Positions 4,588 to 39,500 of a stretch of 39,500 bases of DNA are shown one piece after another. Source of the DNA: Planctomycetota bacterium (GTDB taxonomy: Bacteria; Planctomycetota; Phycisphaerae; Phycisphaerales; UBA1924); NCBI GenBank assembly GCA_024275365.1, contig JAJRZG010000250.1, positions 1-39,500 on the forward strand, written 5' to 3'. Positions within the stretch are counted from its first letter, which is position 1; the number at the start of each line of letters is the position of its first letter. Both the position numbers and the translations under genes were made by a program. The notes below the pieces were generated by a model. It had not been told where the DNA came from, made no database searches, and worked only from the letters and a program-made list of their open reading frames with translations.

Positions 4588-4637
4588 GGGGTGAGGGTAG
4601 TTCGCCTTTGCGGGATGAGTCTTGAGGCTTGCGGCCG

Positions 4638-4742
4638 GGAAAGAGGCGCTGGTGGGCAGGAAACATGCGCTGGCGGGCAGGAAAGACGCGCCGGCAGCCA
4701 GGAAAGAGGCGCTGGCAGCCGGGAAACATGCGCTCGCAACGC
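4638..4742. repeat. 21-bp tandem repeat, five units, upstream of coaX
   Basis: Five consecutive 21-bp units begin GGAAA and share a GCGC core (aggcgctgg, atgcgctgg, acgcgccgg, aggcgctgg, atgcgctcg). They differ at a few positions, so the array is not freshly amplified. It lies between the divergent coaX (minus) and the gene at 4912 (plus). The rest of the interval up to 4911 is pyrimidine- and proline-codon-rich sequence in which I see no gene. A period of 21 bp equals two DNA helical turns, and a second 21-bp array lies at 39189-39341. Confidence 0.85.
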
Positions 4743-38136: not shown

Positions 38137-38271
38137 TTCACCACAGAGGACACAGAGGGACACAGAGGGGGGGAGGGGAGAGGAGGATGTGGTCAGGCGA
38201 AGCCTGTCCATGCAAACTCGTGTTCTGCTTTCTCTGTCTTTCCTCTGTGAACCTCTGTGTCCTCTGTGGTC
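38137..38271. repeat. Inverted pair of CACAGAG-type repeats
   Basis: TTCACCACAGAGGACACAGA and following (38137-38168) is inverted at 38241-38271 (CTCTGTGAACCTCTGTGTCC, then TCTGTGGT). The arms match over about 30 bp, with about 70 bp of G-rich sequence between. A further left arm lies at 39467-39500. I recall such CACAGAG repeats from many bacterial genomes. Confidence 0.85.
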
Positions 38272-38311
38272 AAAAAGAAAGCGACGCGGGAACCCCTCGG
38301 CCCCGCGTCGC
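38272..38311 (-). terminator. Strong intrinsic terminator of the FN3-like gene
   Basis: On the minus strand, GCGACGCGGG and CCCGCGTCGC form a perfect 10-bp stem, followed by TTTCTTTTTG. It lies about 45 bp beyond the TAG stop. Confidence 0.92.
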
Positions 38312-38355: not shown

Positions 38356-39006
38356 CTACGCCGCGATGCTCAGGCCCGTGTTCTCGGGTTCGACGCCGAG
38401 CCGGATGATGATGGGCTCTGAGCCTGCGCTGGTCTCGTTGCCCCGCTTGGCGCGGACGCGGTATTGGACACCGGTGCAGCCGGTGCTGAGTGTGTTGTCC
38501 AAAAACTTCTTGTCGCCGACACTTGCAATGAGGTTCCAGACCGTCTCGTCATCGACCTTGCGGAGGATTTCATAGAAGGTCGAGAAGGCGAGCGTACCCT
38601 TCCACGAGAGCTCGACAGCGCCGTCGCCATTGATAAACCCGCCGACATCGGTGGGTGTCTCGGGCGGCCCGGCGGGGGTGGGGTCGGCCGGCGGCGGGAT
38701 GCTCGCCTTGGAATAGACACTGTCGTCTTCGGTGGACTGGGCGAACGCCTTGATCTCTTTGATAAGCCCCCGGCCGGTGGTGGCCATGGTGCCGGTGTCG
38801 GTATGGAAATCGACGGTGCCATCGCGCGAGGCGATGCGGGCGGCCTGGGCGAGATTATAAGAAGCGCGGGCGGCGCTTGTTTGTGTCGCAAGGTCGGCAA
38901 CCTGCGGCGCGGTCAGCCCGATCGCGGCGGGGTCTGCGGCCCACGCGCCGAGTCGCTGCTCGAAAAACTCGATCTGCTGGAGGAGGGAGGAGGGTAAAAC
39001 AGACAT
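38356..39006 (-). CDS. Small protein with helical N-terminus and fibronectin III-like domain
   Basis: The 216-residue protein has a helical, Ala-rich N-terminal half (QQIEFFEQRLGAWAADPAAIGLTAPQVADLA in parts), a segment IKEIKAFAQSTEDDSVYSKA, a Pro-rich hinge (PPPADPTPAGPPETPTD) and a C-terminal FN3-like beta domain (GAVELSWKGT, FYEILRKVDDETVWNLI, VQYRVRAKRG). There is no signal peptide or membrane span, so a structural or binding role is likely. Small proteins of this layout occur in planctomycetes, and their function is unknown to me. I chose ATG 39006 because AGGAG lies eight bases upstream. The frame continues upstream to 39483, but only through a 21-bp tandem array. It ends in TAG. Confidence 0.8.
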   Translation of the reverse strand: MSVLPSSLLQQIEFFEQRLGAWAADPAAIGLTAPQVADLATQTSAARASYNLAQAARIASRDGTVDFHTDTGTMATTGRGLIKEIKAFAQSTEDDSVYSKASIPPPADPTPAGPPETPTDVGGFINGDGAVELSWKGTLAFSTFYEILRKVDDETVWNLIASVGDKKFLDNTLSTGCTGVQYRVRAKRGNETSAGSEPIIIRLGVEPENTGLSIAA

Positions 39007-39188
39007 TGCTGATCTCCTGATGCGTGCCCCACGGCAGGAGCGTGGTGGGGCGTGGTGTGGTGTGCTGCATCCGGCATCGCCTCTGGCGGGCGGGCTCTGG
39101 CAGTGATGTGTGAAGTCGTCCCGCTCGGGATCGGACTCAAGCCGAGGAGAGAAAAGAGAGCAAAAAAGGGCGGCTTTACACCTCGCAC

Positions 39189-39341
39189 CGATCGTTTGTG
39201 TGACCAACACGGTCGTCGAGACGACACAAACGATCGTTTGGATGACACAAACGATCGTCGAGACGACACACACGATCGTTGAGACGACGAAAACGATCGT
39301 TTGGCTGACCCAATCGGTCGTTGAGATGAGACAATCGATCG
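39189..39341. repeat. Array of eight CGATCG-type palindromic cores at exact 21-bp spacing
   Basis: Cores start at 39189, 39210, 39231, 39252, 39273, 39294, 39315 and 39336. Six read CGATCG and two CGGTCG, most within AACGATCGTT-like palindromes. Spacing is exactly 21 bp throughout, while the bases between vary (GAGACGACA or TGGATGACA types). The array lies about 180 bp upstream of the FN3-like gene. There are no unique spacers, so it is not a CRISPR array. Confidence 0.92.
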
Positions 39342-39358: not shown

Positions 39359-39455
39359 TGCCGGGTGCCATGGTCACGGCTCGGCGTGACCATGACCAAC
39401 ACCCGTTGAGGCTTCAGATCGTGGCCACCCAAAGCTGTGGCCACGGCACCCGGCA
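39359..39455. repeat. Nested palindromic repeat
   Basis: The outer arms TGCCGGGTGCC (39359-39369) and GGCACCCGGCA (39445-39455) match perfectly over 11 bp. Inside are a 10-bp hairpin, CATGGTCACG/CGTGACCATG (39369-39394), and a GTGGCCAC pair (39421-39444). The sequence looks like a folded, non-coding element. Confidence 0.8.
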
Positions 39456-39466
39456 GGGAAGGCAGA

Positions 39467-39500
39467 TTCACCACAGAGGACACAGAGTTTCACAGAGGGA
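39467..39500. repeat. CACAGAG-type repeat, cut by the window end
   Basis: TTCACCACAGAGGACACAGA is identical to the left arm at 38137, then diverges slightly. The inverted partner, if present, lies outside. Confidence 0.85.

Follow-up and report, generated by a model that had tools for sequence, protein, structure and literature searches.

A dispersed family of 21-bp tandem arrays with a GATCG core in intergenic DNA of two congeneric Planctomycetota bacteria

Does a phased array of short palindromes standing before a gene serve this particular gene, or is it one of the copies of a repeat that has its own history? The question is raised by one end of a 39,500-bp stretch (the window), which is one whole contig of the source genome, G000 (3.22 Mb, 350 contigs). 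Its preliminary description, made from the letters alone, reported eight CGATCG palindromes exactly 21 bp apart upstream of an FN3-like gene, and implied that the array belongs to this gene.

The array and its genomic neighbourhood

The features considered are as follows.

39189 to 39341, no strand: tandem array with a 21-bp period, made up of seven complete units plus the core of the eighth
38356 to 39006, minus strand: FN3-like gene (216 aa), with the array 183 bp upstream of its start
39014 to 39018, minus strand: ribosome-binding site AGGAG of the FN3-like gene, recognised by sequence
38270 to 38311, minus strand: terminator of Rho-independent type of the FN3-like gene, stem 38281–38290/38302–38311, T-rich tail
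39102 to 39188, no strand: stretch between the end of homology with the congener G002 (39101) and the array, delimited by sequence comparison
39359 to 39454, plus strand: flanking dispersed repeat with an inverted repeat ATGGTCACG...CGTGACCAT at 39370–39393

All eight core positions are in step, with starts at 39189, 39210, 39231, 39252, 39273, 39294, 39315 and 39336, so that the spacing was described correctly. Eight phased sites are indeed present, but the hexamer CGATCG itself occupies six of them, while 39210 and 39315 carry CGGTCG. The GATC methylation site noted in the same description is there trivially, as in any CGATCG; genes of D12-type methylases are present in the genome. At step 21 the summed core match reached 46 of 48 bases, while none of 100 dinucleotide shuffles of the window exceeded 31; for steps of 15–20 and 22–29 in the same 500 bp it was at most 26. 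Tandem Repeats Finder assigned to the array 7.3 units of 21 bp with 73% match and, in addition, a 63-bp period with 81% match; the array thus has the at least four tandem units of 10–200 nt by which satellites were defined in PMC6749651. General excess of CGATCG was rejected as an explanation, since in this genome the hexamer occurs at 0.86 of its Markov expectation. The statement that the core is kept while the bases between vary is true by count (2 mismatches of 42 in the core versus 24 of 105 in the spacer, Fisher p = 0.008), but the core was chosen post hoc, and if columns are permuted and any run of six may win, p for the window array alone becomes 0.29, so that within this array the contrast is weak. 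In a 768-kb sample of G000 (partly N) the hexamers AACGTT, GACGTC and TACGTA are absent, and GTGCAC and GTCGAC are strongly depleted, which, judged by composition, looks like restriction-site avoidance.

The protein of the neighbouring gene was modelled (pLDDT 89) with a long helical N-domain and a C-domain folded as a seven-strand sandwich, which matches FN3 domains in PDB. A Pfam search with this protein gave no convincing family, and its relatives were not found in the viral contigs searched. The gene belongs to a paralog family with eight matches in G000, 12 in G002 and 43 in G025. Its position downstream of the array, its own ribosome-binding site before the ATG and its strong terminator had all been described before and can be retained, the latter as a 10-bp GC stem with a run of T seen by eye; the terminator scan did not list this hairpin because of its 11-nt loop. 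The contig ends 159 bp past the array, inside a copy of a CACAGAGGACACAGAG-type intergenic repeat, which stands at 38139–38169, 38238–38272 and 39470–39500 and once forms an inverted pair.

Related arrays in two congeners

A DNA search over 61 genomes, supplemented by a search for the unit pattern, revealed array-like clusters only in G000 (contigs C162 and C284) and in its congener G002 (C16, C17 and C43). A search of the genome for further arrays, proposed in the preliminary description, has therefore added a second related place in G000 and three in G002, and the arrays stand at several genome places, as in dispersed non-coding satellites. The oriented unit is roughly GATCGNNGAGNNGACNNANNN. 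The arrays of C16, C43 and C284 show a 42-bp alternation with high lag-2 identity, and in three arrays, with both species represented, a similar terminal unit GA(T/C)CGNGTGAGA...CCCAC (GTGAGA...CCCAC) was found. No description of this 21-bp family was met in the literature searched (open-licence papers only).

The array of G002:C16 (L096) occupies the orthologous place: the gene and its upstream DNA are 82% aligned up to position 39101 of the window, and in both genomes the array starts 88 bp past the end of flank homology. Its unit differs from that in the window, being GATCGAGGAGCAGACAAAAGT in alternation with GATCGAGGAGAAGACCTACTC. Conservation of spacing and core at the same locus in relatives, suggested earlier as a check, was thus observed in this congener for the 21-bp step and GATCG.

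Gene contexts of the family are varied. The arrays before the FN3-like gene, in the window and in G002:C16, lie in a gap between tandem genes, as does the array of C284 in the M20/M48 gap of G000, while in G002 the array of C43 is situated between divergent purF and rpsD, and that of C17 between convergent DinB and MBL (all these gene names are our interpretation of translations). A relative of the repeat at 39359–39454 also flanks the array on C17. The M20–M48 gap, which bears the array in G000, is short and free of the unit in G002, G001 and G003, and the purF–rpsD gap, which bears it in G002, is likewise short and without the unit in G001 and G003. The DinB–MBL gap of G001 is short and has no unit within the stretch inspected; DinB and MBL genes match different contigs in G003, and the synteny of both purF–rpsD and DinB–MBL is broken in G000. 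Direct comparison with congeners was made for two of the three non-shared places (M20–M48 and purF–rpsD). Neither a transposase nor a target-site duplication was identified at the family arrays.

Unit-free gaps in congeners, taken together with the shared end units, fit copying of whole elements plus slippage and make it less likely that the array is an FN3-gene operator. We consider it fairly probable that the array in the window is one copy of a genus-level family of non-coding dispersed 21-bp satellites (minisatellites), which would have no dedicated role at the FN3-like gene. Such an element may be copied as a whole array into other intergenic sites, which is a simpler account of the shared end unit than separate expansions. 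Once in place, the arrays would grow, shrink and homogenise through slippage or unequal recombination, processes that would lead to the 42-bp alternation, and the fixed 21-bp step may be an inheritance from the founding unit. Passive spread is the simplest account of this family.

Conservation of the unit and other explanations

The 48 units pooled from five arrays of G000 and G002 have invariant G1 and G5, while A18, G13, C4 and C15 are kept in 45–47 of them. The near-invariant columns fall into two clusters approximately half a period apart, GATCG at 1–5 and GAC..A at 13–18, an arrangement expected of sites lined up along one face of the helix, with protein binding being so far a prediction. 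Together with retention at the orthologous place these columns hint, at the level of alignment, at a constraint on DNA, which is not proven by the 48 units since they share ancestry, homogenise and hence are not independent.

A lag scan covered 768 kb of G000, 409 kb of G002 and 400 kb of G001. In G000 more tandem arrays had period 21 than any other (5 of 28, other periods being represented by at most two), and units of these arrays are unrelated, which hints that 21 bp itself is favoured. The G002 sample, which includes three known array places, contained one array at 21 and four at 42 bp, and no 21-bp array was found in G001. One of these five, in the window at 4627–4738, has an unrelated unit GCTGGCGGGCAGGAAAGAGGC and lies just upstream of a minus-strand reading frame with the likely start at about 4588. 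Elsewhere in G000, the array of C265 (L016, 10780–10952) has CGATCG/CAATCG cores and 42-bp alternation with a spacer unlike that of the window array; the array of C17 (L043, 16219–16405) changes orientation midway, GGCCGTCC giving way to the reverse complement GGACGGCC, and that of C231 (L022, 4014–4116) has the unit GTGCGTGGCTCTTCCGTCCTT.

Among 149 genomes of the phylum, 21-bp arrays were registered in the source genome (two places) and in one other, the remaining matches being chance-looking; 24-bp control arrays in the same genomes gave nothing array-like. In the whole collection four CGATCG at 21-bp steps occur in at least 118 stretches from many phyla, many of which, situated in long open reading frames, are possibly coding. 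The three-core pattern gave 37–143 matches each in one Phycisphaerae MAG (AS06rmzACSIP_467), two Intrasporangium genomes and one Virgibacillus, and the one locus examined per group (L248, L218 and L257, respectively) was intergenic. Arrays of these bacteria share with our family the 21-bp step and CGATCG in the unit, but their spacers are unrelated and the copies are far more numerous. With core and step both imposed by the search, its matches are no evidence that 21 bp or CGATCG is favoured, nor do they imply common origin. In the AS06 MAG, permutation of columns showed the core to be better conserved than the spacer (p < 0.01). Of the AS06 arrays (L202, L205, L248, L259 and L266) three share internal unit order and two of these both flanks, with A-rich units on the left and T-rich ones on the right; an array of this type is also borne by L251, a contig labelled as belonging to a Methanofastidiosia archaeon, due to mis-binning or transfer.

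According to a tentative and clearly less probable explanation, the dispersed arrays provide binding platforms to which a structural or nucleoid protein attaches, touching GATCG and GAC..A from one helix face every 10–11 bp; with the same reservation, selection would then hold the step and position relative to genes would be irrelevant. The exact step and its retention with GATCG at the orthologous G002 place speak for such a platform, as do the half-period distance between the two clusters, the presence in G000 of other 21-bp arrays with unrelated units and the conserved core of AS06. Against it are the small number of arrays per genome in G000 and G002, the two non-shared places empty in congeners, the lack of a candidate protein and the non-significant core test for the single array, while the period is conserved in tandem arrays automatically. 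It is unlikely that intergenic arrays which are dispersed, keep an exact two-turn (21-bp) step and have a conserved GATC-type core make up a recurrent class of bacterial architectural DNA, undescribed so far, and that this class arose in several phyla separately, each time as a platform to which a phased DNA-binding protein attaches.

It is improbable that the array is transcribed and folds into a series of RNA hairpins with a terminator-like or stabilising role. The plus strand of the window array folds with a z-score of −3.6, and values of about −2 were obtained for its minus strand and in G002, but any palindrome array tends to give such folds, changes in the stems are mostly uncompensated (CTCGACC versus GATCGAG), arrays also occur between divergent genes, and Rfam offered no family above threshold, just sub-threshold miRNA noise. 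Control of the FN3-like gene by an operator array, the reading suggested in the preliminary description, is very improbable, even if the array precedes this gene in both G000 and G002. Tandem, divergent and convergent contexts give no constant position relative to gene start, the arrays found adjoin only one of many FN3 paralogs in G000 and G002, a promoter-like site was not found by the scan, and, with two non-shared places unit-free in congeners, the link implied earlier is not supported. Least credible is that the array encodes a small protein of heptad repeats (seven codons per 21-bp unit): one frame of the plus strand stays open from end to end of the arrays, gives heptads such as VIDEETHSIEEKAQ and in three arrays stops at TGA in the shared end unit, but a consistent start codon or ribosome-binding site is lacking and the variable columns are not third codon positions. 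Coding heptads were rejected because variation by codon phase is flat (0.69–0.91 bits in each phase of every frame) and start codons are inconsistent, and the family arrays can be considered non-coding as far as their sequence allows one to judge.

Relation to known repeats

Direct repeats of about two helical turns are typical of plasmid iterons, which stand beside the rep gene or origin; the 21-bp family resembles them in the length of the repeat and differs in standing at several places, with no rep gene noticed next to its arrays. The TAACTGA heptamers of Beggiatoaceae (PMC4679880) are likewise dispersed intergenic direct repeats with patchy occurrence across phyla, but their unit is 7 bp and they are mostly situated just before start codons, to which the 21-bp arrays are not tied. 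Closest in organisation are dispersed non-coding satellites of prokaryotes, described as rare and found in Leptospira interrogans, Methanocella conradii and Chloroflexus aurantiacus (Subirana and Messeguer 2019, PMC6749651). They are also tandem and non-coding, with related arrays at several intergenic places, while the 21-bp unit, GATCG core and 42-bp alternation distinguish the family considered here; in that study, units of the non-coding long-repeat families exceed 30 nt, and the family of Chloroflexus stands apart as one with short repeats.

To these reportedly rare families the exact two-turn step makes an unusual addition. Being present in two congeners, at places of which some are shared and others not, this satellite family can serve to test the way in which such arrays spread, and whether selection holds the helical step or the step is simply inherited.
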